Source: Marinomonas arctica (lineage in GTDB: Bacteria; Pseudomonadota; Gammaproteobacteria; Pseudomonadales; Marinomonadaceae). From it: a DNA stretch of 64,000 nucleotides. A model generated the notes under the pieces. The model searched no databases. It was not told the DNA's origin and worked only from the letters and a program-made list of their open reading frames with translations. Shown one piece after another: positions 6,232 through 34,524 of the stretch. The stretch covers positions 62,001-126,000 of the forward strand of contig NZ_QHJF01000016.1 of assembly GCF_003259225.1 (NCBI RefSeq), read 5' to 3'. Positions within the stretch are counted from its first letter, which is position 1. Every line of letters begins with the position of its first letter. The position numbers and the translations under genes are program-made.

Positions 6232-7467
6232 CTACGCTAAGAATTTATTCACACCCTGAGCGGCCCAATGCCCCGTAGCAAAGCACGCGGTTAACAAATA
6301 ACCGCCCGTTGGCGCTTCCCAGTCCAGCATTTCACCCGCACAGAACACACCGGGCATGGCTTTTAACATGAGCATGTCATTCAGACTGCTTTCACACACC
6401 CCACCCGCACTGGAAATCACCTCTTCAATGGGTTTCGTTTTATAAAAGTGAACTGGCATGGCTTTTAAGCATCGCGCGAGCGTCTCTGGCGTCTGGAAGG
6501 CGTCTTTAGGAAAAGATTCATGTAACAACGCCGTTTTTACACCTGTTATGTTCAGTGTACGTTTTAAGTACTTGCTAAAAGATTCTTTTGGCTTGATGTG
6601 ACGCAATTTCTTGATTACTTGCTCTTCGCTTTGCAAAGGCAAAAGATCCATCAATAAAGACGATTGGCCCGAGCTGTTAATGCCATCACGCAGATATTTA
6701 GAAAACGCATAAATAAGACTGCCTTCCATACCGTCCTGAGTGACAATGCATTCTCCCTTTTTCGTCACCACTTGTCCGTCTTCAAATGTAAAAGAAAACG
6801 CCACATCTTTTAATGGACTGCCTGCAAATTTCGTTTGTAAATGCTCACTCCACTCACTGTAAAAGCCACAGTTGGCACTCTGTAGGGGAGCAACCACTAC
6901 GCCTTTTTCAGACAACAGTGGAAGCCAAGCCCCGTCTGAGCCCAACTTTGGCCAACTGCCTCCCCCCATTGCAAGGACAATGGCATCGGCCTGAACAACA
7001 ACACTATCGCCTGCATGATCAAACACCACTTCATTAGCCGACAAGCCAACCATTTTATGACGCATATGAAACTGCACACCGGCGTCTCGTAATCGTTTTA
7101 ACCAGTTACGCAACAGTGGTGCCGCTTTCATGTCTTTGGGGAACACTCGCCCAGAGGTACCCACGAATGTTTCTATGCCTAAACCATGAATCCATTCGCA
7201 CAAGGCATCCGCATTGAACTGACGAATGGCCGTATCCAACCACTCGGCTTTATCGTAATAGCGTTGAATAAAATCGGGGTAGGCTTCCGAGTGGGTGATA
7301 TTCATGCCCCCCACACCGGCTAAGAGGAATTTACGACATGCACTGGGCTTGGCATCGTATACATGAACCTGATGGCCTGCGGCACAAATGCCTTCGGCGG
7401 CCATCAAACCCGCAGGACCCGCACCGACAACAACGACTGTTTTCTGCGTTTGTAACGCCTTTTGCAT
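6232..7467 (-). CDS. BaiN/HI0933-type NAD(P)/FAD-dependent flavoprotein
   Basis: A 411-residue flavoprotein of the HI0933/YhiN family. The FAD-binding motif VVVVGAGPAGLMAAEGI starts near residue 8. AGVGGMNITHSE (a family hallmark), VLAMGGGSWPKLGSDG and the C-terminal GEMLDWEAPTGGYLL follow. The family is widely conserved but its reaction is mostly unassigned; a gut relative, BaiN, reduces bile acids. An open frame extends 32 residues upstream, but the segment is hydrophobic and unlike the family, so I start at the ATG at 7467. It is monocistronic and convergent with the porin gene. Confidence 0.87.
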   Translation of the reverse strand: MQKALQTQKTVVVVGAGPAGLMAAEGICAAGHQVHVYDAKPSACRKFLLAGVGGMNITHSEAYPDFIQRYYDKAEWLDTAIRQFNADALCEWIHGLGIETFVGTSGRVFPKDMKAAPLLRNWLKRLRDAGVQFHMRHKMVGLSANEVVFDHAGDSVVVQADAIVLAMGGGSWPKLGSDGAWLPLLSEKGVVVAPLQSANCGFYSEWSEHLQTKFAGSPLKDVAFSFTFEDGQVVTKKGECIVTQDGMEGSLIYAFSKYLRDGINSSGQSSLLMDLLPLQSEEQVIKKLRHIKPKESFSKYLKRTLNITGVKTALLHESFPKDAFQTPETLARCLKAMPVHFYKTKPIEEVISSAGGVCESSLNDMLMLKAMPGVFCAGEMLDWEAPTGGYLLTACFATGHWAAQGVNKFLA

Positions 7468-7696
7468 ACTTACCAACATCAATTCAAAGAGACACTTAAA
7501 AAAGAAGTGCATGATAAAGAACTTAGGCGTAATCACCAATGCTTTCAACGCAAATGAAACCACTTTACCAATTAAAATAGCACTCTAGCAGACAAAATTT
7601 CGATGTGACTCGCTTTTTATAGATGCTACTATTTAACCCTACGAAACTTAATAAAGTTGGTATGCGAATCACTAGCTTTGACATGAAGGATGTTAA

Positions 7697-8515
7697 GTGA
7701 AGGTCAGTTTAATCGTTGCAGTCTACAAAGACATAGAAGCCTTGTCGTTGATTGTAGAGTCTCTCAGAACACAAACCTATAAGAACTTTGAACTTATTGT
7801 CGCCGAAGACAATAATAGTGATGAGGTGCGTGCCTTTGTCAGCACGATTAAAGATCTTGAGGTAATACATACGACTCAAGAAGACATTGGTATTCGCAAG
7901 TCGCGATCACAAAATAATGCGATTTTAGCGTCAACGGGGGAATATATTATTTTCATCGATGGCGATTGTTTACCCTACAGTACCTTTATCGAAAGTCATG
8001 CTTTGCTAGCAAAAAAAGGTCAAGCTCTTGCTGGGCGTAGAGTCAATTTAGGGCCTAAATACAGTAAAAAAATCCGTACTGGGAAAATGAGTGCCTTAGA
8101 ATTAGAGCGTAAGTATATCCAAAAACTACCTAGTCTTTGGAGAGATTGCGAAGAAGGCCATATCGAAGCTGGCATTTATCTTAAGCCTCATAGCAATCTA
8201 TTCCAAAAATGGATCTACCCTAAAAGTACCTCTATTGTTGGCTGTAATTTCTCTTGCTTCAAAAGCGACTTGATCACTATTAATGGTTTCGATGAAAGCT
8301 ACGGAGAAACATCCATTCCCGATGATACGGACATAGAATGGCGACTTAGGGCTTTAGGTTTGCAAGTCAGAGCTTGTAAGTTTTCAGCCAATCAGTTCCA
8401 CCTTTATCATACCCGCTCTTCCAGAGACTACTCCGGTAGCCAGTATGAAACTGATATGTTGGAGCGAAAGTCAAAGGGCATGTTTAAAGCAAGACAAGGC
8501 TTAGATACCCACTAA
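7697..8515 (+). CDS. Family 2 glycosyltransferase
   Basis: A 272-residue GT-A fold transferase. The N-terminal nucleotide-sugar domain has SLIVAVYKD, LIVAEDNNSD and the metal-binding DGDCLP. A C-terminal galactosyltransferase-like segment has NGFDESYG and PDDTDIEWRLRALG. It lacks membrane segments, so it acts in the cytoplasm on a lipid-linked or soluble acceptor. The start is GTG with GAAGGA six bases upstream. No other polysaccharide gene is nearby, so donor and acceptor are unknown. Confidence 0.88.
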   Translation: MKVSLIVAVYKDIEALSLIVESLRTQTYKNFELIVAEDNNSDEVRAFVSTIKDLEVIHTTQEDIGIRKSRSQNNAILASTGEYIIFIDGDCLPYSTFIESHALLAKKGQALAGRRVNLGPKYSKKIRTGKMSALELERKYIQKLPSLWRDCEEGHIEAGIYLKPHSNLFQKWIYPKSTSIVGCNFSCFKSDLITINGFDESYGETSIPDDTDIEWRLRALGLQVRACKFSANQFHLYHTRSSRDYSGSQYETDMLERKSKGMFKARQGLDTH

Positions 8516-8534
8516 TCATATGATGAAAGTAGAG

Positions 8535-8568
8535 AAAACGCTGACGTCTCATGATCGCCAGCGTTTTT
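8535..8568. terminator. Bidirectional terminator
   Basis: AAAACGCTG (8535-8543) pairs with CAGCGTTTT (8559-8567), with two more pairs inside after a mismatch. T-rich on both strands, between convergent genes. Confidence 0.75.
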
Positions 8569-8573
8569 ATTTT

Positions 8574-9155
8574 TTAAGCCTTTTTCGTCGCCTGCACACC
8601 AGCGGTCAAAGCAAGGCGCATGGCTTCTTCAACACCGATATCTAATTCCGTCAAACGATCGCGAGAAATGTACAGCGTCATACCGCCGATCTGATAACTC
8701 AATGGCACATAGACCCCTACCAGATCTTGCTCTTTAAATAGCCGCTTTCCGGTTTGCTCTCCGGTGATAAAACCAATCACTTGCGCACCATTCCATTCGA
8801 TGGATACGACACTCTTCATTTCTTTTTTTTCCGCGAGATTGAACACCATCATCATGTCTTTGATGGCGCCATAAATGGACTTTACTAACGGTATGCGTTC
8901 AAAAATGTTATGACTTAATTTCACCAAATAACGAAAGCCATATAGATTCACTAAAAAGCCAGTGAGAACCAGCAGAGCCAAACTGGCCAGTAAACCTAAT
9001 CCGGGAAAATACAGTGCCTCCGGAATCAGCAACAACAATACAGGCTGAGCAATGGCCTCACCCGTCGCTAACAACCAATAAATCAAATACACAGTCAAAC
9101 CAATCGGTAAAACCGCTACCAACCCTTTCAGCAATAATGCAATCAATTTGTTCAT
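8574..9155 (-). CDS. DUF502 family inner-membrane protein
   Basis: A 193-residue protein with two predicted transmembrane stretches: residues ~4-28 (with the family-like GLVAVLPIGLTVYLIYWLL) and ~46-70. A cytoplasmic domain follows with PLVKSIYGAIKDM and a GVYVPLSYQIGG segment typical of DUF502. The family is broad in bacteria and plants with no settled biochemical role. It is monocistronic, convergent with the glycosyltransferase and divergent from a LysR gene. Confidence 0.87.
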   Translation of the reverse strand: MNKLIALLLKGLVAVLPIGLTVYLIYWLLATGEAIAQPVLLLLIPEALYFPGLGLLASLALLVLTGFLVNLYGFRYLVKLSHNIFERIPLVKSIYGAIKDMMMVFNLAEKKEMKSVVSIEWNGAQVIGFITGEQTGKRLFKEQDLVGVYVPLSYQIGGMTLYISRDRLTELDIGVEEAMRLALTAGVQATKKA

Positions 9156-9316
9156 GATTAAAATGATCCTATAAAGATGCGTATAGCATACCGCAAGCTT
9201 TATGCCACTCCTATGACTCTAATAAGACTTCAGGAAAAGATTGCTGAAATCTGATTAGCCTTATACCCTTTTGAGTTATCTTACTATTTTTTCATGACTC
9301 TAGAGGTAACCACAAC

Positions 9317-10222
9317 GTGAACTACAAACGCCTTGAAACTTTTGTTTGGGTTGCCTCACTAGGAAATTTTCGCAAAGCGGCAGAACGCTTACATACTACA
9401 CAGCCCGCTATTTCCGCTCGAATTTCTGGATTAGAAGCCGAGTTAGGCGTTAAGCTTTTCGACAGAGAAGGCGGTTCTAGCCCCATTACGTTGACCTCAA
9501 AAGGCAAGGAATTACTGCCTTATGTGGAAAAAATTCTTTACCAAACCGAGCAATTACGAAAACGCGCCGGTCTTTCTACTGCCTATTCGGGCATATTACG
9601 CTTAGGGGTTTCAGAAACCATAGTGAACACTTGGCTACCCGACTTTCTATCTCGACTGAATAAAGACATGCCCAACCTCGACGTCGAAATGACGGTCGAC
9701 ATCACCGCCAATTTAAGCAATGGCATCAAGGATAGGTCACTGGATTTGGGGTTATTAATGGGGCCAATTTCCGAGCCAAACATCGTTAACCGAGAGCTTT
9801 GTACGTTTTCCCTGTCTTGGGTGGCGAGCCCAAATTTAGACCTACCTGATCGACTTTTATACTTAGAAGAATTAGCCAAATGGCCCATCATTACTTATGC
9901 TCGCGCCACCAAACCTTATGTCGAAATCAGTCAAAAATTCCGCGAACTCGATGGGCCACCAGCGCACTTTTTTGCATCAACATCATTGGCCGCCTGTCGT
10001 AGCTTAGCGATTGACGCAGTGGGTATTTCCACATTGCCTAACATCATGATTGCAAAAGAATTAGAAGCGGGAAGCCTGCGAAAAATCAGGGCCGTTTGGA
10101 CCCCCAACGATCTCACCTTCACCGCGTCTTATTCAGACGAGCCTTTTAACCCTATTGCCGAAGTGGCCACCAACATTGCCGTCATCGCCGCCGAAGAATA
10201 CAACAAGAGACAAGCGCCATGA
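9317..10222 (+). CDS. LysR-family transcriptional regulator
   Basis: A 301-residue LTTR with an N-terminal winged helix (FRKAAERLHTTQPAISARIS, ELGVKLFDRE) and a C-terminal periplasmic-binding-like effector domain (ILRLGVSETIVNTWLPDF onward). The start is GTG, with GAGG nine to ten bases upstream. It is followed tail to tail by an amidase, with the two stop codons exactly adjacent. Beyond that lies the 5-oxoproline operon, whose upstream region has a T-N11-A box. Control of that operon is a reasonable inference, not shown. Confidence 0.88.
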   Translation: MNYKRLETFVWVASLGNFRKAAERLHTTQPAISARISGLEAELGVKLFDREGGSSPITLTSKGKELLPYVEKILYQTEQLRKRAGLSTAYSGILRLGVSETIVNTWLPDFLSRLNKDMPNLDVEMTVDITANLSNGIKDRSLDLGLLMGPISEPNIVNRELCTFSLSWVASPNLDLPDRLLYLEELAKWPIITYARATKPYVEISQKFRELDGPPAHFFASTSLAACRSLAIDAVGISTLPNIMIAKELEAGSLRKIRAVWTPNDLTFTASYSDEPFNPIAEVATNIAVIAAEEYNKRQAP

Positions 10223-11494
10223 TTAGCCTTTTATAATAGACGCTAATTGTTTCGCTAAATCCAATAGCACCTGATCCTTACCGTTGCCAGCCGTTAACAT
10301 CAATCCCATGGGCTCTTGCTCAAAGCAAAACGGCAAGGAAACACTGCAACCGTTTAACACATTGGCCAACGACGTATTGCGTAAACACAGCAAGTTTAAG
10401 CGATCGTATTCTGAATCTTGGACTAAATCGGACAATTTTGGCGCAACAACAGCCACCGTCGGTAGCAAGAAAACGCTATGCGGCTCCTCTTTGGCCATTC
10501 GCTCAATAAAAGCCTGCCTAGCCGCTTTTGTCTGCTGAAAATCCTCTGCATGAATGGTTTTCGCGCGAGCGATACGAGACGCCACGCGCGGATCAATGTC
10601 AGCGGTTTCCAAATCATAGTTCTGACTATAAAACGCCTGACTTTCAAAAGCCGAAAACTGCCAAACAGGTAAGGTTTTGTAGGTTTCTAGCGCTTCAATA
10701 AAGCGTCTTTCAATCACCACTCCTGCCGCCTCAAGCTGAGCGATCTGCTCGGCAAAGCCTTGTTCTACCTGCGTATCTAAGTCATTCATACCAAAGTTGC
10801 TTGGCACGACAATGCGCAGTCCATCCGCGTTCGTACTGTTTTTTATGTCTGCTGACGGCGCAGCGCCAGACAATACCTGCCAGAGCAACTCACACTCATC
10901 TACTGTTTTCGCTATTGGACCGACTGAATCAAGTGAATATGATAATGGCAAACAACCTTCTCTAGAGACCGTTTGTTGGGAAGGTTTAAATCCTGTCAAA
11001 CCACAAAACGCCGCCGGAATGCGCAGCGACCCCCCAGTATCGGTTCCTAACGCGGCATCCGCCACCCCCAAAGCAACCGACGCTGCACCGCCACTGGTGG
11101 ATCCGCCCGTGATTCGACCCACACGAATTGGATTTTCCGGCGTGCCATAATGAGGGTTTAGGCCTAATCCCGAATATGCCAGCTCTGTCATATTGGTGTG
11201 ACCCAACAAACTCGCACCGGCTTTTCTTAACAACGCCACCGCAGCAGCGTCATGCTCTGCAGGTGTTGCGTCCAAAAAAACCGATCCCGCTTGCGTCTTA
11301 TAGCCTCGCACTTGAAACAAGTCTTTGATCGAGACAATCGCCCCGTTTAATGGGCCTTGCTGAGGCTCAACATAATCAAACAGCTCAGTAAAAACCGCTT
11401 GGCCTTTTGTATCAATAATATCTAAAGCCCCCTTCCACTTGATGACAAGCTCTCTATCCTGCCAAGCAAAATTCGGTAGTGTTGGTTGCGTCAT
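10223..11494 (-). CDS. Amidase signature family enzyme
   Basis: A 423-residue amidase. The Ser-cisSer-Lys catalytic set is visible: Lys in IVSIKDLFQ, cis-Ser in GGSTSGGAA, and nucleophile Ser in GTDTGGSLRIPAAFCG. Family members hydrolyse amides such as indoleacetamide, nicotinamide or allophanate; GatA is longer and has GatC/GatB partners, which are absent here. It is divergent from the DUF1445/TRAP/PxpABC operon, so it may release a carboxylate that enters that pathway, but the substrate is not determined. Confidence 0.88.
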   Translation of the reverse strand: MTQPTLPNFAWQDRELVIKWKGALDIIDTKGQAVFTELFDYVEPQQGPLNGAIVSIKDLFQVRGYKTQAGSVFLDATPAEHDAAAVALLRKAGASLLGHTNMTELAYSGLGLNPHYGTPENPIRVGRITGGSTSGGAASVALGVADAALGTDTGGSLRIPAAFCGLTGFKPSQQTVSREGCLPLSYSLDSVGPIAKTVDECELLWQVLSGAAPSADIKNSTNADGLRIVVPSNFGMNDLDTQVEQGFAEQIAQLEAAGVVIERRFIEALETYKTLPVWQFSAFESQAFYSQNYDLETADIDPRVASRIARAKTIHAEDFQQTKAARQAFIERMAKEEPHSVFLLPTVAVVAPKLSDLVQDSEYDRLNLLCLRNTSLANVLNGCSVSLPFCFEQEPMGLMLTAGNGKDQVLLDLAKQLASIIKG

Positions 11495-11626
11495 ATATTC
11501 GCTCGCTACTAGACGTTTAGGGATGAGTGTTGACCGATAATCGCATGCAATAACAGCCTGATTTGGTCTAGGAAATTACCTCGCTTGATCCGTTCCGTCA
11601 AAGAGAGAATAATCATCACCGCAGAC

Positions 11627-11647
11627 TTGATAAATAAAATTGATCAA
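11627..11647. promoter_or_regulatory. LysR-type T-N11-A box upstream of the 5-oxoproline operon
   Basis: TTGAT (11627-11631) and its inverse ATCAA (11643-11647) are separated by exactly 11 bases, the classic LTTR box geometry. It sits 89 bases before the first ATG of the operon and in the divergent gap to the amidase. A second, shorter arm pair (TTGA/TCAA, 9-base gap) lies at 11585-11601. Confidence 0.5.
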
Positions 11648-11735
11648 AATACCCAAAAAAACACGATTAGACTTTTCATAGGTGCTGGATCTACTCTTAA
11701 TAAAACACATTGTGGCAAAAATAAGGAAAACGTAA

Positions 11736-12536
11736 ATGAACCAATCTCTGTCACCCTTACTGCAACAAACATCTGAATTGCGCCAAGCCATTCGTAGTAA
11801 GGCGCATACTGGCGTTACTAGTGGTTTAGCACAGGGCGCAATGCAAGGTAATGTGGTGATTTTGCCAGCCGATTGGGCGAATGACTTTTTGCTCTATTGT
11901 CAAAAAAACCCAGTATCCTGTCCTTTGATTGGCGTGTCTGAAGTGGGTGATTTTAGAATGCCAGAACTCGGTAACGACATTGATATGCGCCACGATATCC
12001 CTGAATACTATGTGTATCGCAATGGCGTGAAAGTCGAAAGCCGCTCTGATATTGAAGATTTATGGCAAGATGACATGGTGGCTTTCGTACTAGGCTGTTC
12101 TTTTTCTTTTGAGTATGCGTTATCGCAAGCCGGACTCACGCCACGGAACATCGAAGAAGACGTCAACGTGTCCATGTTTGAAACTAATATTGCCACCGAG
12201 CCAGCCGGACGCTTTTTTGGTAATACCGTGGTGACCATGCGCCCTTATGTGCCAAAAGACGCCATTCGTGCCATTCAAATTACCACTCGTTTTCCCAAGG
12301 CTCACGGCTCTCCACTACACTTTGGCTCACCACAAGACATTGGCATCAAAGATTTAGGCAAACCAGATTACGGTGATGCCGTCAGCGTAAAAGACGGTGA
12401 AGTACCGGTCTTTTGGGCGTGCGGTGTGACCCCTCAAGTGGCGATTCGTAATGCCAAACCACCGATTTGCATTACTCATGCCCCCGGAAAAATGCTGGTA
12501 ACGGATATTTTAGACACAGATCTCGCAGTGTTTTAG
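11736..12536 (+). CDS. DUF1445 (YcsI-like) putative hydro-lyase / D-glutamate cyclase-like protein
   Basis: A 266-residue protein of the DUF1445 family, often annotated as putative hydro-lyase. Family features include [43 protein letters not shown] and FWACGVTPQ near the end. The same domain is present in the mammalian D-glutamate cyclase that forms 5-oxo-D-proline, and bacterial copies often sit beside 5-oxoprolinase genes, as here. AAGGAAAA lies just before the ATG. It heads the operon ahead of the TRAP transporter. A role in opening or making D-5-oxoproline is an inference from family and context. Confidence 0.85.
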
Positions 12537-26784: not shown

Positions 26785-29700
26785 TTATGAATTACTAAAT
26801 CGCTCTCTTTCTAACAAATCAATAACGATTATTTCTATCTCCTGAACTCCGGGATAGTTTTCAGCAATACTCAGCCAGTAGGTTTTAAGTGCTCCTGAAA
26901 GCTCTTTCAAATTGACTAATTTACCGTCAATACTCCATCGCTTTGTAGGTTCTATATCTTGAGAAACTAATAGAAAGACACCACACCCAGCACCTTCCTC
27001 TCGAAGGTAATCCCCAGCAAGCTGGTTTCGTAAGCGCTCACATAATTTAGGGCCAGACCACGCTTTATCTAATAGCTTTAGCTCAACTGGAACCGGAGAT
27101 TGTACACTTGTATTATGAAGCCAAATATCCATGCGTTGACCGTTTGCAAGTTCAGACTCTTGGGCCGTTGTGTATTGACCATGACTGTTTTGATTGAGCC
27201 AGCCAGCGATCAAAGTTCGCATTTCTGTTTCGCCATCCGCTTTTTTCCAAGTTAGCCACGGGCTGTCATTACCTCGCTCTAACCAATGTTTCAAATCAAT
27301 TATCCTATTAACCGTATGATCAAAAAGTTGGCGGTGTGTTGCAGGTGTTATTGTCTGATTTTTATCAAATTGGCCAAACTGATCGACCGTCCACAGTTCT
27401 AAATCACCATCTTCGACAGCTCTTCTATAGGCTTGTTGCGCCATCCATTTTCGATATGCCGGTTCTGGATGTTCTTCGATCAATTGTTTGATCGAAGTAT
27501 AACTAGCAACACCAGTAATGTTGCATAGGAGAGAAAATAGTGTACTCCGAGCACTTTGTGCTTCATCACGTAAGTCTTCGGAATGATACACTCTCCCATC
27601 AGCTCGGTTTATATCATCTTTAGACGGAATGTATTTATGCATGAGGACATAGAGCTTTCTCAAATACTCTGGGGTCTTGAAGCAACCTACATTAGGTACA
27701 CTAAATGATCGATGACTTGCGCCAACAAGTGCGGTAACAAAAATTTGAGCAGCTCGGCTGACGATCTCATGATCAAGCCCCGCTAACCATTGCTCAAGGT
27801 GAGGAATGCCATAAGCTGGATCACAATCAACCAAAAGAGCAAACCAGCAAGCAATATTATCTAAATCGTTACTTTGATCTATCTCTTGTTTTGCAACATT
27901 TGCAAGACGCTTCGGATCACTATTCCCAGAAATTAAAAGTTGAATACAATCTCTTCTATTATTCCCTTGAAGTGTATTTGGATGAGCTTCAACCCATTCT
28001 AAAAGGCTAACCGCGATATCCTCATGCAACCAAGAGGCACCGAAAACAAGTGAACTCAGAATACGGTAATTCAAATCTAAATCTGCGCTTTCCAGCTCCC
28101 AGATAAGCTCTTGAATAATGGCTTCAGCAACTAACGAAGGAAATGCTCGGTACATGCTCTCAAACCAACTAGGAAAACCATTTATCTCCCAAGTGAGATA
28201 TCGTAATGCATGACGAACTTCTGATTCATTTAGGTTAATAGGAAAATTGGCAGACTCTATGGCCTCAATCTCTAAGCCAGATAAAGCGAAAGATATTGAA
28301 TAATAAGGAAAGTTGTTTGACCTTATGCCACTCTCAGATTGCAGAGTTGGCTTATAATTTCTCCAGTACATCATTGCAGCATCTCGATAAGCATGTGCAA
28401 CATCCTCACCAAAATCGGGAATAAGCAGTCTCCAATCAGAACCTTCACTTCGACGTGTTTTTAAGGAACTTCCACTTATTTCATTTAGCAGGCTACATTG
28501 ATCCTCACTAATGTCAGCCTGCTTATTAGGTATGATCCATTGATGAAAGTTGCTTCTCAGATCTACTATCCAAGCATCACGGGACGTTTTTTTCTGCTCT
28601 TGTACAACATCGAGTTTTTTTCTTCGTTTTTCATTCTCTTCTTTGCGCTTTTTTTCCCCATCTGATTCAGGAGGGTCAATCAGCATGTTCAATTTATTAG
28701 TCAAAATAGAACTATGCTCTACGCTTGCTTTTAACTTTGTCAGCATATCCGATGGTTTATCGAGCTTGGTGTAAAGACGAAAGGCGGTACTTAGCGCAAT
28801 AGACTGATCACTTTCTGATTCACGAGAACGGATAAATGAAAGCAATCGTTGAAAACTCTCAACTGTACTAAATGCCCAAAAATGCCCTTGCCAAGAAATA
28901 GGCCAATCTGAAGTCAAAGGTTCGCTTTTAGGATCTGAAAGTAGCTTTATTTTTTCCTGTTCAATACAAGCCCAATAAAGCCGATCATTCAATTCACTCC
29001 AATGCGGTATCAGTTCGGCTAAGTTACTTTCATAATCATCAAAGTGTTCTCCACCATAAGAATTGTATAGCGGTAGCATCATAAGAATGGATAAACTTTC
29101 ATCGGAAAATGAAAATGAATGCCTTATCTCAATTACGCGCTCCACAAGATGAACAGCGACACCAAGAAGCCATGAATGAGCTTCAGAAATTTTACACTCA
29201 CTCTTCTCGATATACGGCGGGTCATTTAGATAACCGATTAAGCCATGTATTAACGTTTGATAAATCTGTATGTTTGCAGCAATAGGCATTCGCGTAACAA
29301 ACTGATGAAGTGCTCGTCGCAAACCATTCGCCTCGAAGCTCTCATTGGCAGATAGTTTTAATTTGCTAACTGATAAAAGTATATTTTGAATATTCTCACT
29401 GGTTGGCTCTGCATCTTCGATTAGTTCTGCTAGCAATCGACGTGGAATTTTTTCCTCGCTTTGGTTGAACCTTTGCCATAAGGATTGTATTTGTTCATTA
29501 GTGCCACAGGTTATGACAGCCCGAGCAGAGGTTAATCGAGCATAATTGCCTAGGATGGGGTTAAGAGCTATTTCCAGCAAAGGCGCAACACAGTCTGTCA
29601 TTTTTCCTTGCCAGACCAATCGAGCAAGAAAGAAAATGGCATCATCATTTTCGTTATGTTGATTAATAAGTAACAAGGCATCTTTTGTCAGGGCAACATC

Positions 29701-31137
29701 CGAAATTCTTGCAATTGCGCTATTATCCCCTCCGGTACTATTGTTTTCATCCTGTGCAATACGGTGAACTATATTTTTAAGAATGGTTTTTCTTTCTGAT
29801 AAAGGCAGTTTAGATGGATCTCCACCTTCAATAGCAACCTCAGGATCAATACTTAGTACAGTGTTTCTGATGTTGGTATCCCACAATATTAACCAAGGCA
29901 AAATGGATCGAAGTCTTGGCCTAATGATTGTCTCGCCATATTGTTCACCAATAAATAAACGCTCTATAGATAAACGACTGTCGCCATTAGCTATCAGGTA
30001 AGCAAACCATTTTGCTGCGAGCAGTTCTCTGATATCACGATGCCTGAATCGAACCGCTCCATATATAACATCGCTGAAAACACTGCGCTCCAAAAGAGCA
30101 TTCACATCATTCGGACGCCAATCAGACAGCACGGCTTTTGCGTCTATTCCCAATTTATCGAGCGAGGCATCGGGAATGTTGATACTTGATTGGCCACTCA
30201 TAACTACGGCAGCGGCCAAACGTTGTACTCCCTCTTGAGCTTTATTTAGGTTTAACGGCTGACGCTGTGCTCTATCTATATTATGTTCATCGCTTAACTG
30301 CTCATTTATACTGTGTTCTAGTAGATCTAGACGGCTACCAAGTTTTTTATCCTTTGTCCATTTGGATAAAATACTATCTAAATCAAGAGGCCGTTGAGCC
30401 AAGCTCCAAATACTCGCTCTATCAATTTCCCTTAAAAGTTCATCAATGTCATTCACTGATCTTTTTTCACAGAAACAGCGAATTCTTTCCTCATCCAAAG
30501 GCCGCATTCCGTAAACCGTCAAAGCACTTTGAGGCTGATCTTCAGTCTTATCACTTTCTTGCTTTGGTGCAACTAAAAATAAATGTCTGTTCAACAGCTC
30601 ACGATCAGCTTCTGGTCGCCAAGAGTAAGGACGGCTTGAAACATAAAGATGCGCTCTATGTGCACCTTTTTTGATACCTTTAGCGAATCGCTTTAACGCT
30701 AATTCAAAAGCTCTTGGGGTTTCTAACCTTGCTTCATCGACCGAATCTAAAAAGAACCAAGCTTCCTCTATCGATTCTAGCCAAGCGTTAAATTCATCTT
30801 CTGTTCCAACCTCAAAGGCGTCATAAAAATCTTGCTCGATATCTTCAATACGAATAAAAAAAGACGGTCTGCCTTGTTCTAATAAGGCTTTGGCTTTATT
30901 GAGTAATTCTTCCGTCTTGCCAGCGCCGGCTTCAGCTAAAATGACACAGCGATACTCACCTTCTAAATCAACCCAAGTTTTTAGCGCTGAATGACCTAAA
31001 GAAAAGAGTAGCTCATTATTTTCTAGATCTTCTTGGTCTTCCGAAATAATTGAAAATTGACGATCTAATAGAATGTACTTTTCTTTAGTCATAGACGATA
31101 AGTTCGCTTCACCAACAAAAAAACAAAGAGGTTTCAT
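26785..31137 (-). CDS. NACHT/STAND ATPase with C-terminal PD-(D/E)xK nuclease-like domain, putative anti-phage protein
   Basis: A 1450-residue protein. The NTPase near the N-terminus has Walker A EAGAGKTEE (Lys74), Walker B FFLDSVDEA (Asp131, Asp134-Glu135) and the NACHT-type sensor SSRP (167-170). A following helical segment ends in FRHRDIRELLAAKW, typical of the NACHT winged-helix/helical arm. The long middle (about 400-1290) is alpha-helical and repeat-like, suiting a ligand sensor. The last ~150 residues have a nuclease-like pattern: Asp1337 in QRMDIWLH, then Glu1352-x-Lys1354 in PVELKLL, and Gln1372/Tyr1377 in NQLAGDYL. Avs proteins have nuclease first and sensor last; here the nuclease is last. 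The start may be 31137 or the ATG at 31092; neither has a good ribosome site. The function is inferred. Confidence 0.8.
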   Translation of the reverse strand: MKPLCFFVGEANLSSMTKEKYILLDRQFSIISEDQEDLENNELLFSLGHSALKTWVDLEGEYRCVILAEAGAGKTEELLNKAKALLEQGRPSFFIRIEDIEQDFYDAFEVGTEDEFNAWLESIEEAWFFLDSVDEARLETPRAFELALKRFAKGIKKGAHRAHLYVSSRPYSWRPEADRELLNRHLFLVAPKQESDKTEDQPQSALTVYGMRPLDEERIRCFCEKRSVNDIDELLREIDRASIWSLAQRPLDLDSILSKWTKDKKLGSRLDLLEHSINEQLSDEHNIDRAQRQPLNLNKAQEGVQRLAAAVVMSGQSSINIPDASLDKLGIDAKAVLSDWRPNDVNALLERSVFSDVIYGAVRFRHRDIRELLAAKWFAYLIANGDSRLSIERLFIGEQYGETIIRPRLRSILPWLILWDTNIRNTVLSIDPEVAIEGGDPSKLPLSERKTILKNIVHRIAQDENNSTGGDNSAIARISDVALTKDALLLINQHNENDDAIFFLARLVWQGKMTDCVAPLLEIALNPILGNYARLTSARAVITCGTNEQIQSLWQRFNQSEEKIPRRLLAELIEDAEPTSENIQNILLSVSKLKLSANESFEANGLRRALHQFVTRMPIAANIQIYQTLIHGLIGYLNDPPYIEKSECKISEAHSWLLGVAVHLVERVIEIRHSFSFSDESLSILMMLPLYNSYGGEHFDDYESNLAELIPHWSELNDRLYWACIEQEKIKLLSDPKSEPLTSDWPISWQGHFWAFSTVESFQRLLSFIRSRESESDQSIALSTAFRLYTKLDKPSDMLTKLKASVEHSSILTNKLNMLIDPPESDGEKKRKEENEKRRKKLDVVQEQKKTSRDAWIVDLRSNFHQWIIPNKQADISEDQCSLLNEISGSSLKTRRSEGSDWRLLIPDFGEDVAHAYRDAAMMYWRNYKPTLQSESGIRSNNFPYYSISFALSGLEIEAIESANFPINLNESEVRHALRYLTWEINGFPSWFESMYRAFPSLVAEAIIQELIWELESADLDLNYRILSSLVFGASWLHEDIAVSLLEWVEAHPNTLQGNNRRDCIQLLISGNSDPKRLANVAKQEIDQSNDLDNIACWFALLVDCDPAYGIPHLEQWLAGLDHEIVSRAAQIFVTALVGASHRSFSVPNVGCFKTPEYLRKLYVLMHKYIPSKDDINRADGRVYHSEDLRDEAQSARSTLFSLLCNITGVASYTSIKQLIEEHPEPAYRKWMAQQAYRRAVEDGDLELWTVDQFGQFDKNQTITPATHRQLFDHTVNRIIDLKHWLERGNDSPWLTWKKADGETEMRTLIAGWLNQNSHGQYTTAQESELANGQRMDIWLHNTSVQSPVPVELKLLDKAWSGPKLCERLRNQLAGDYLREEGAGCGVFLLVSQDIEPTKRWSIDGKLVNLKELSGALKTYWLSIAENYPGVQEIEIIVIDLLERERFSNS

Positions 31138-31258: not shown

Positions 31259-31615
31259 ATGAATAACATAAAACACAAGAAAGTGTCTGTTCACTTTTTC
31301 CGAACTGCGTCGGGAAGTGAGCCTGTCAGGGAATGGTTATTATCTCTTGCAAAAGAGGATAGAAGCGCCATAGGACAAGACATAAAAACAGCAGAGTATG
31401 GTTGGCCCGTCGGTATGCCCATATGTCGTTCTATGGGTGACGGACTGTGGGAAGTACGAACCAATTTGGAAGGTGGTCGTATTGCTAGGGTATTATTTTT
31501 CTTTAGAAACAACGAATTAATTTTACTGAATGGCTTTATGAAGAAAACCCAAAAGACACCTAAATCTGAATTAGATTTAGCTAGAAAACGAAAGCGAGAG
31601 GCTGAAAATGGCTAA
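31259..31615 (+). CDS. HigB/Gp49-like (RelE superfamily) toxin
   Basis: A 118-residue protein of the phage-derived Gp49-like / HigB group (RelE fold). Typical features are VREWLLSLAKEDR, the core MGDGLWEVRTNLEGGRIARVLFF and LLNGFMKKTQKTPKSELDLA. These toxins cut mRNA on the ribosome. It overlaps by eight bases the HTH antitoxin gene that follows, the reversed toxin-first order usual for higBA. A palindrome precedes it. No strong ribosome site is visible. It is divergent from the large NACHT gene. Confidence 0.9.
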   Translation: MNNIKHKKVSVHFFRTASGSEPVREWLLSLAKEDRSAIGQDIKTAEYGWPVGMPICRSMGDGLWEVRTNLEGGRIARVLFFFRNNELILLNGFMKKTQKTPKSELDLARKRKREAENG

Positions 31616-31889
31616 TAAACATATCGGCTCTTCCTTTGATGATTTCCTAGAAGAGGAAGGCACACTGGCTGAAACCAATGCCGTCGCTATAAAGCGAGTG
31701 GTGGCTTGGCAAATTCAGCAGAAGATTGAGCACGAGCACTTGTCCAAAACAAAGATGGCACAGTTGATGAAAACAAGCCGCTCTGGATTGGATCGACTGC
31801 TTGACCCAAACAACACGTCTGTCACGCTTCATACCTTGGATAATGCCGCGAAAGCGTTAGGTAAAAAGCTAAAATTAGAGCTTGTTTAG
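31608..31889 (+). CDS. XRE-family (HigA-like) antitoxin
   Basis: A 93-residue protein with one helix-turn-helix (about residues 40-92: LSKTKMAQLMKTSRSGLDRLL followed by TLHTLDNAAKALGKKL, given as two stretches). It should neutralise the overlapping HigB-like toxin and repress the pair. A second copy about 95% identical at the DNA level lies at 34243-34524, but without a start codon. The start ATG falls inside the toxin's last codons. Confidence 0.9.
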   Translation: MANKHIGSSFDDFLEEEGTLAETNAVAIKRVVAWQIQQKIEHEHLSKTKMAQLMKTSRSGLDRLLDPNNTSVTLHTLDNAAKALGKKLKLELV

Positions 31890-32012: not shown

Positions 32013-32267
32013 ATGGATACACTAAGTTACTCAGCTTTTAAAGCCAATCTTGCTAGCACGTTTGATAAAGTGAATAACGATCATAAGCCTGTTCTCATTA
32101 CTCGTCAGGGTGGCAAACCAGCCGTATTGATTAGCTTAGAGGGCTTTCAAGCGTATGAGGAGACGGCCTATTTGATGGCAAGCCCAAAAAACGCTTCTCG
32201 TTTGAACGAAGCCATTGCCGAAGTGGAAGCAGGCAAGACACAGATAAGGGAACTGATTGAGGAATGA
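32013..32267 (+). CDS. Phd/YefM-family antitoxin
   Basis: An 84-residue antitoxin: the N-terminal MDTLSYSAFKANLASTFDKV, the DNA-binding region around KPVLITRQGGKPAVLISLEG, and a C-terminal toxin-binding tail. The ribosome site AGGAG is present. In YefM-YoeB modules the toxin gene overlaps the end of this gene. Here the overlapping downstream sequence still reads as a YoeB start but is broken, so this is an orphan antitoxin. Confidence 0.9.
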   Translation: MDTLSYSAFKANLASTFDKVNNDHKPVLITRQGGKPAVLISLEGFQAYEETAYLMASPKNASRLNEAIAEVEAGKTQIRELIEE

Positions 32268-32937: not shown

Positions 32938-34128
32938 TTACCAAAGATGTGGAAAGAGATATGAAATCGCATCAAAAGGAATACGCTTAATCTTAAGAAG
33001 CTCTTTTGCTTCCCCACTAATCCAGCCTTCCTCGATAAGTTGTTTAACCATCGCGCGGGAATTGGTTTCTCCCATCTTGGTAAATGCTGGAACATCTCCC
33101 CTCATTACCTTAGTGCCGTTTATTATTTCCTTTAGCAAAATAAACGCTTCGACACGCCATTTTTTTAGCTGCTTCCCTTTCGTACTTAAAGCGCCTCCAG
33201 CTACGCGTAAGTCAGCATATTGCTTTAATCGAATATCAAATGATTCTATTTCAAGAACGCCAGAAAGATACTGAATTTGGTCAAGACAGGTTTCAAGAAA
33301 ATAACGCTGGAAAGCCTCAAGCCCTCTGTTTGAAAGAATCCCTCGCCCATCAGTACTGCCTTGTCGAACCATGTCAGCCCCTGCCAGACGAAGTTTGTAT
33401 TCATCAACTGTTCTTGCAAAACCTCGACTTAACGTCCAAAGGCCATAGCCTTCAACCCCTGCAGCTCTCATATAACTATCCGTAAACAAACGACAAACTC
33501 GACCATTTCCATCTAAAAATGGATGAATCCACGCTAGACGGTGATGAGCAGCGGATGCAGCAAGAAGACGACTTTCTCCGAAAAGATGATCCAATCTATA
33601 AGCACTATGGAACCAGTTCAAATATCCATTTAACTCTTCCACACTTGGCGGTAAATGCTTACCGACTTGAACTTGAGTCGTTCTTAGTTGGCCTGGTTCG
33701 ACAACAAACACTTCTCCCGTAGATTCTCGAACATGCGTTCTAGTTGACTCTGATAAGTCTTCAAAAAACCATTTATGTATCAAGCATAGAAATGCTCTGT
33801 CTGTTATATGCTCTGGCTTAACTTTACTATCAGCCAAAGCGGCCTGAGCAGCTAAATGAGCCTCAACTTCTAATAAATCGTTCCGTTTTACAAGATCAGT
33901 TGGTCTAACCTCTTCAGCGTGAATAATGTCAGCAGGCTCTGTGCTGTTTCCTTCAATCCTATTACTGTAGTAACTATTCACAAAACGCAGTAAATGTTCT
34001 ACTGCAGGCTTAAGGCTCGGTCGAATGGAAGCCGATAGGCTAGAGGATTGCTTATAAACCTCCACAACCATATCTCTAATATCTCCAGACGCTTTTTCTG
34101 GCTGAACAAAAGGAGTTATACTGATCAT
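32938..34128 (-). CDS. Fic-domain protein (AMP-transferase type) with N-terminal inhibitory motif
   Basis: A 396-residue Fic protein. The catalytic motif HPFLDGNGR is at 202-210 (His202). The N-terminal helix carries SNRIEG (Ser55...Glu59-Gly60), matching the [S/T]xxxE[G/N] inhibitory motif of class II Fic enzymes, where the Glu blocks ATP. The C-terminal ~130 residues look like a winged-helix module. Such proteins AMPylate target proteins; the target here is unknown. It sits within the toxin-antitoxin cluster but needs no separate antitoxin, because the inhibitor is in cis. Confidence 0.9.
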   Translation of the reverse strand: MISITPFVQPEKASGDIRDMVVEVYKQSSSLSASIRPSLKPAVEHLLRFVNSYYSNRIEGNSTEPADIIHAEEVRPTDLVKRNDLLEVEAHLAAQAALADSKVKPEHITDRAFLCLIHKWFFEDLSESTRTHVRESTGEVFVVEPGQLRTTQVQVGKHLPPSVEELNGYLNWFHSAYRLDHLFGESRLLAASAAHHRLAWIHPFLDGNGRVCRLFTDSYMRAAGVEGYGLWTLSRGFARTVDEYKLRLAGADMVRQGSTDGRGILSNRGLEAFQRYFLETCLDQIQYLSGVLEIESFDIRLKQYADLRVAGGALSTKGKQLKKWRVEAFILLKEIINGTKVMRGDVPAFTKMGETNSRAMVKQLIEEGWISGEAKELLKIKRIPFDAISYLFPHLW

Positions 34129-34242: not shown

Positions 34243-34524
34243 TAGACGAATAAACATATTAGTTCTTCCCTTGATGATTTCCTAGAAAAGGAAAGCACAC
34301 TGGCTGAAACCAATGCCGTCGCTATAAAACGAGTGGTGGCTTGGCAGATTCAGCAGAAGATTGAGCACGAGCACTTATCCAAAACAAAAATGGCGCAGTT
34401 GATGAAAACAAGCCGCTCTGGATTGGATAGACTGCTTGACCCAAACAACACGTCTGTCACGCTTCATACCTTGGATAATGCCGCGAAAGCGTTAGGTAAA
34501 AAGCTAAAATTAGAGCTTATTTGA
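34243..34524 (+). pseudogene. Second copy of the XRE antitoxin gene, start codon lost
   Basis: From AATAAACAT (about 34249) to the stop, this matches 31614-31889 with about 15 mismatches in 276 bases and no gaps. The first two codons, ATG GCT in the intact copy, are TAG ACG here, so the normal start is gone. Only a GTG at 34333 could start a 63-residue remnant holding the helix-turn-helix. No toxin gene precedes it, and similarity stops at the gene edges. Confidence 0.8.

Follow-up and report, generated by a model that had tools for sequence, protein, structure and literature searches.

The hyoA gene of Marinomonas arctica encodes a putative NACHT-type antiphage protein whose predicted tail nuclease is missing from two HyoA lineages

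Does a large gene standing alone in the genome of Marinomonas arctica encode an antiphage effector, and is that effector of a new kind? The gene lies at 26785..31137 of a 64,000-nucleotide stretch of contig NZ_QHJF01000016.1 (assembly GCF_003259225.1, positions 62,001 to 126,000 of the forward strand), which is called the window here and whose numbering is used for the positions below. A first-pass annotation, made from the sequence alone, had described the product as a large NACHT ATPase with a PD-(D/E)xK-like tail and a candidate antiphage role, and as an undescribed effector. The motifs, their conservation and the name of a curated family bear out a NACHT-type STAND ATPase, the tail and a probable antiphage role, and the word undescribed has to be dropped, because equivalog models already exist for this family and for a related one, EruA. 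The window protein matches the NCBIfam (release 20.0) equivalog model NF058534, 'NACHT domain-containing antiphage protein HyoA', with 1581.2 bits against a cut-off of 1200, and the alignment pairs residues 24-1444 with positions 1-1430 of the 1430 in the profile, its full length. Against the EruA model NF058535 it scores 150.2 bits over residues 57-1389, under the cut-off of 1000. On sequence grounds the gene is hyoA, intact and ordinary for the named antiphage family to which it belongs; nothing was found that marks the Marinomonas copy as a new type. What Pfam and PADLOC-DB 2023 leave looking like an orphan is in this way given a place among the named antiphage families.

How would such a protein work? 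We consider it highly probable that HyoA is a single-gene antiphage protein of the NACHT (STAND) type, which senses phage through its middle, forms an ATP-dependent assembly and cuts DNA with a tail nuclease, leading to abortive infection. During infection a phage product would be recognised by the helical middle; with ATP bound, the NACHT modules would then be able to assemble, and assembly would unite the tail nucleases and so activate them. The activated nucleases would cut DNA, and the infected cell would die or stall ahead of phage release. The parts of the gene concerned are as follows; dN denotes non-synonymous divergence.

26785..31137, minus strand: hyoA, 1450 amino acids, ATG start, intact open reading frame (ORF), match to NF058534
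29698..31092, minus strand: NACHT/STAND ATPase module with helical arm, about residues 16-480, from motifs and invariant residues; the boundary is an estimate
30913..30927, minus strand: Walker A GAGKT, residues 71-75 (K74), by motif
30730..30750, minus strand: Walker B LDSVDEA, residues 130-136, by motif
27358..29697, minus strand: helical middle, residues ~481-1260, partly HEAT-like and probably the sensor, from weak HEAT matches and the highest dN in the genus
28363..28662, minus strand: most variable patch in the genus, residues 826-925, 51-64% identity to all five Marinomonas relatives
26788..27285, minus strand: predicted C-terminal PD-(D/E)xK-like nuclease domain, about residues 1285-1450, from the invariant active-site set and the alignment with EruA-like tails
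27127..27129, minus strand: codon of D1337, predicted active site, by motif and conservation
27076..27084, minus strand: codons of E1352-x-K1354, predicted active site, by motif and conservation

The motifs that the first-pass annotation had picked out are all present. These are the Walker A lysine, the LDSVDEA Walker B, SSRP (at 167, sensor R169) and FRHRD (at 364) in the NACHT module, and in the tail the pattern D1337-x14-E1352-x-K1354 followed by Q1372-x4-Y1377; ETEMR is found in addition at 1303. Alignment A1 comprises the window protein together with 26 relatives, the most distant of which are only 19% identical. K74, D131, D134 and E135 are invariant in all 27 of these sequences, and R169, H366 and R367 are also invariant in this alignment. 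The tail residues E1303, E1327, D1337, E1352, K1354, Q1372 and Y1377 are the same in 30 of 30 full-length tail-bearing sequences, that is, the window protein and 29 others. This set consists of 24 sequences from alignment A2 and six new ones, and leaves out three A1 members without the domain, the fragments L047 and L051, and a broken-up copy in genome G234 (L014/L025). Invariance throughout both sets argues that the motifs are not due to chance. The G234 copy (L076, 7554-11970) is a decaying hyoA in four overlapping pieces, with His at the position of the tail catalytic Asp. Weak Pfam matches to NACHT (5/27, best E 0.00079), nSTAND3 (10/27) and HEAT_2 (4/27) occur among the A1 relatives. The true first methionine of HyoA may be Met16 (window 31092), since in six homologues from outside the genus (L069, L070, L071, L079, L081 and L083) the start corresponds to about residue 18-20, and the alignment to the HyoA profile opens at residue 24.

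A D...(D/E)-x-K site with a flanking E and a Q-x4-Y helix defines the PD-(D/E)XK nuclease superfamily, and the window protein has these features. In a profile comparison, the HyoA tail and the tails of eight EruA-like proteins can be aligned at 98.7% probability, and the E, E, D, E-x-K and Q-x4-Y positions of the two consensus sequences coincide. Three of these eight proteins were scanned against NCBIfam, where L097 and L048 lie over the EruA cut-off and L049 lies below it with 859 bits. A restriction-endonuclease-like fold is likely for the HyoA tail, and the reading of the tail as a nuclease is well supported by sequence. At another locus (L088, 9485-10855) a nicotinate phosphoribosyltransferase reading frame is joined in frame to a 3' hyoA fragment that comprises the nuclease part.

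The middle of the protein is the candidate sensor. Within Marinomonas the ratio of non-synonymous to synonymous divergence (dN/dS) of hyoA is 0.16-0.24, indicating purifying selection, and the dN of the NACHT and nuclease regions is lower than that of the middle in five of five comparisons. Besides the patch at residues 826-925, residues 526-700 are 65-73% identical in four of the five relatives. This pattern of variability would suit a sensor in the helical middle. Between the gene of Marinomonas hwangdonensis (L003) and that of the window, dS is 0.077 over residues 16-480 and 0.675 over residues 481-1260. The L003 gene (10001-14359) is an intragenic mosaic, its NACHT part near-identical to that of the window and its middle diverged. 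Such close, partly mosaic Marinomonas alleles are useful for mapping the sensor, with the 826-925 patch as the place to look.

In Avs systems the effector is N-terminal and the sensor is C-terminal. The first-pass annotation had noted that the window protein turns this order round, and the reversal is real: relative to Avs1-Avs4 the NACHT module is N-terminal and the nuclease C-terminal, with only 70 residues ahead of Walker A, a nuclease motif that spans 1303-1377, and no PADLOC match. The reversal is a feature of the named HyoA and EruA families, and not new with the window. EruA has a similar layout and a homologous tail domain, but the window protein falls far under the EruA cut-off, and the two are separate families. 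The clade 6 proteins bNACHT25 and bNACHT32 combine NACHT with an N-terminal PD-(D/E)XK DNase that degrades DNA upon infection and a C-terminal sensor, according to PMC12169576. The window protein shares NACHT and PD-(D/E)XK with them as there described, but its domain order is the opposite and it has no N-terminal nuclease. According to PMC12169576 and PMC13092281, bacterial NACHT proteins known to date typically carry the effector at the N-terminus and the sensor at the C-terminus, and HyoA and EruA therefore invert this order.

Several results weigh against the proposed mechanism. The window protein has no match in Pfam, NACHT (PF05729) included, none in PADLOC-DB 2023 and no match of note among PDB sequences; with Pfam and PADLOC-DB 2023 both silent, it looks like an orphan. 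Structure prediction of the C-terminus, proposed in the first pass as a check, gave no confident model of the fold. In two AlphaFold models of the tail, helices and strands follow one another as they should in a PD-(D/E)xK core, but the mean predicted local distance difference test score (pLDDT) is low (57.8 and 55.4), and Foldseek gave no match to either at E <= 0.001. The non-significant structural matches include the restriction-endonuclease-like proteins Kpn2I, Cap4, MspJI, PaqCI and HamA together with many unrelated proteins. When A2 and A1 were used as profiles against the PDB, neither a nuclease nor a NACHT match came up; alpha-Rep/HEAT matches were returned for residues ~470-600 (E 0.016-0.6), in line with a partly HEAT-like middle. 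In the middle of hyoA dS is raised as well as dN, so recombination contributes to its variability, perhaps as much as selection on a sensor. Several of 18 neighbour proteins of homologues read as housekeeping (for example polA, nth and pdxH, by sequence reading). Full-text searches by name did not find the primary publication behind the name HyoA, and the name EruA was likewise absent from the literature results; in both cases a search with looser terms excludes little. Finally, the tail domain might act on DNA or on RNA, and on that of phage or of host.

Some relatives do not have the tail. Three of the 27 A1 sequences are without the nuclease, namely L066 and L067, which are from Rhizobium plasmids and form one lineage, and L075 (the same gene as L012) from G032, the genome of a gammaproteobacterium. 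In all three the match ends at about the same domain boundary. On NF058534 two of them score 1244.7 bits (L066) and 833.7 bits (L075), and annotators should be aware that a nuclease-less Rhizobium protein still passes the HyoA cut-off. In a tree of the pre-nuclease part, two or more changes are required to explain the absence of the nuclease, and a single change suffices in none of the 200 bootstrap trees; a long branch makes the placement of L075 unsure. All nine strong matches (1e-40 or stronger) in one class sample, the class of G723, are full length, and beyond these two cases the shortened form is rare. The HyoA family itself was already named. What is new here, and lies outside the window, is that the nuclease is missing in two lineages, at least one of which is under purifying selection. 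The tail nuclease thus appears as a separable effector module, and the nuclease-less lineages suggest an exchangeable effector slot.

In the Rhizobium lineage a Fic gene overlaps the nuclease-less hyoA by 4 bases (L066 6712-11615, L067 6727-11612). Over the 9 kb compared, L066 and L067 have in common only 6613-11693, which holds Fic and hyoA, between different flanks, and the two genes therefore behave as if they travel as a two-gene unit. Between these loci dN/dS is 0.10 for hyoA (0.024/0.236) and 0.03 for Fic (0.0067/0.218), which places both genes under purifying selection; the value for hyoA argues that the shortened protein is maintained by selection. No nuclease remnant was found downstream of hyoA in L066 or L067. 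A lone Fic gene, about 98% identical, occurs in Rhizobium beringeri, where two of eight such records were examined. In one of these (L091) the first 32 codons of hyoA persist after Fic, from which it follows that the lone Fic there was probably derived from a Fic-hyoA pair; in the other (L092) no hyoA remnant follows Fic. The lone Fic genes had been considered as proof that Fic is independent of hyoA, an argument that the remnant in L091 undercuts. Remnants of hyoA in Shinella and Mesorhizobium plasmids (L100 and L101) have no Fic match within 12 kb (0/2).

The L075 protein ends differently. Its tail, NFNDPVMVQAIGNGNTIHN, resembles the start of the product of the next gene, NFNAPVTTQVVGDGATIIN (112 amino acids), over 19 positions (L075 8900-9559). 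None of 5000 shuffles reaches the score of this likeness, in a test devised after the likeness was noticed. Sought elsewhere, this putative adaptor was found solely in its own genome (1/229). A related protein of 207 amino acids is encoded elsewhere in genome G032 (L099). Bacterial amyloid signalling motifs are common to adjacent receptor and effector genes, with the motif at the N-terminus of the receptor, according to PMC8086366. The pairing in L075 is similar to what is described there, yet its motif lies at the C-terminus of HyoA. By analogy, the L075 tail could possibly be a homotypic or amyloid-like pairing motif that recruits a partner.

Taken further, these variants would make HyoA a NACHT platform with an exchangeable C-terminal slot, occupied by a fused nuclease in most members, the window protein among them, served in trans by a translationally coupled Fic in Rhizobium, or carrying in L075 a tail motif that recruits a partner. 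We put this forward tentatively and would sooner bet against it than for it. The variants pose a testable question, namely whether the tail nuclease is the effector and whether Fic is able to substitute for it. They also bear on the best-surviving alternative, that the tail is nuclease-like without being a killer and that it cuts phage DNA only, or cuts RNA, or senses nucleic acid, so that defence proceeds without abortive death. A domain that is dispensable in two lineages could be a non-effector accessory, and DNA as the substrate is in any case a prediction. This alternative is unlikely in our view, for the E/E/D/E-x-K/Q/Y set is invariant in 30 of 30 full-length tail-bearing proteins, as expected of a catalyst, and in one nuclease-less lineage the gene of another enzyme, Fic, is coupled to hyoA, as if an effector had been replaced.

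Does HyoA act alone? The surroundings of the window gene are as follows.

31259-31889: genes for a Gp49/HigB-like toxin and a helix-turn-helix (HTH) antitoxin, divergent from hyoA and adjoining it
31614-31887 and 34249-34522: 274-nucleotide direct repeats, 95% identical, of antitoxin-gene DNA, flanking the yefM-Fic segment
31894-34245: yefM-Fic segment, between the direct repeats
32013-32267: YefM-type antitoxin, by sequence
32938-34128: Fic gene, same strand as hyoA and upstream of it, from Pfam Fic and PADLOC SoFic (86 bits)

The first pass had placed the gene by itself, bordering on a toxin-antitoxin cluster, which is true for the window, and comparison of 206 neighbour ORFs at 27 loci with each other gave no constant neighbour family. 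The toxin and antitoxin are both full length beside hyoA in four of six Marinomonas loci; L004 has the antitoxin with a shortened toxin ORF, and L005 has neither. The pair was found at none of 23 loci outside the genus, some of which have short flanks, and is thus a genus-level neighbour of hyoA. Across the Marinomonas loci this toxin and antitoxin are more conserved in identity than hyoA itself. After the YefM antitoxin no recognisable toxin ORF follows on the same strand (ORFs of at least 40 amino acids up to 32960). Locus L077 is otherwise collinear but lacks the yefM-Fic segment; this absence and the flanking repeats make the segment a removable insert.

Fic is the sole family found at more than two loci apart from Marinomonas synteny (4/27: the window, L066, L067 and L083), and at all four it lies upstream of hyoA on the same strand. 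The window Fic matches the Rhizobium Fic coupled to the nuclease-less HyoA with 189 bits. It also resembles SoFic-like Fic proteins, but it is a neighbour and not a part of HyoA, and coupling to hyoA is seen solely in the Rhizobium plasmids. Of 23 genomes, two (G000 and G523) have a Fic gene no more than a few kb away from hyoA; each of them has ten Fic matches, and the G523 Fic shows only distant similarity (31.9 bits). Fic was accordingly rejected as a constant partner of the window hyoA, being rarely near hyoA in these genomes and multi-copy, but its sharing among the four loci counts otherwise. A wider link between Fic and HyoA is a lead, weakened by the ten matches in each of the two genomes.

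These neighbours raise a second alternative, in which Marinomonas HyoA is part of a larger unit and acts through the HigB-like toxin and HTH antitoxin or through Fic. The frequent presence of the pair in the genus, even with a shortened toxin in L004, and the recurrence of Fic in one orientation in different genera would fit such a unit, as would the match between the window and Rhizobium Fic. We regard it as improbable, because the pair is absent from L005 and from all 23 loci outside the genus, the yefM-Fic segment sits between repeats and is lacking in L077, the window genome has ten Fic matches, and the window hyoA retains a nuclease of its own. A single-gene HyoA remains the preferred reading.

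The first-pass annotation had drawn the defence role from architecture and neighbourhood. The architecture bears this out, through the motifs, their conservation and the curated name; the neighbourhood is weak, given the several housekeeping-like neighbours and a scan that had no control. In that scan 94 neighbour proteins were compared with PADLOC and 74 families were matched, with SoFic, MkoA/B/C, HerA, MzaA and LmuB among the 25 listed. It covered 23 of the 27 loci, excluding the window, L002, L003, L077 and some neighbours removed by hand, and without a control no enrichment is drawn from it. That HyoA takes no part in phage defence and is a STAND protein of housekeeping or stress signalling, as the partly ordinary-looking neighbours and the silence of PADLOC-DB 2023 could be taken to mean, is very improbable beside the curated antiphage name, the intragenic mosaicism and variable middle, the relatives on plasmids and a distribution that is patchy even within the genus.

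Over the NF058534 cut-off there are matches in 6 of 48 genomes of the genus, 6 of 369 in the class sample, 8 of 398 in the phylum sample, 2 of 78 in the class of G523 and 9 of 385 in the class of G723 (among matches of 1e-40 or stronger); these counts include the window genome where it was sampled, and the samples partly overlap. Relatives on plasmids amount to 59 records, all less than 60% identical to the window protein, and relatives also occur in two phage-collection records. Scans of viral contigs gave, among the matches listed, only L096 (N-terminal part, 28%) and L097 (EruA). The latter (8016-12035) is a full EruA gene on the IMG/VR viral contig IMGVR_UViG_2883423733_000004.

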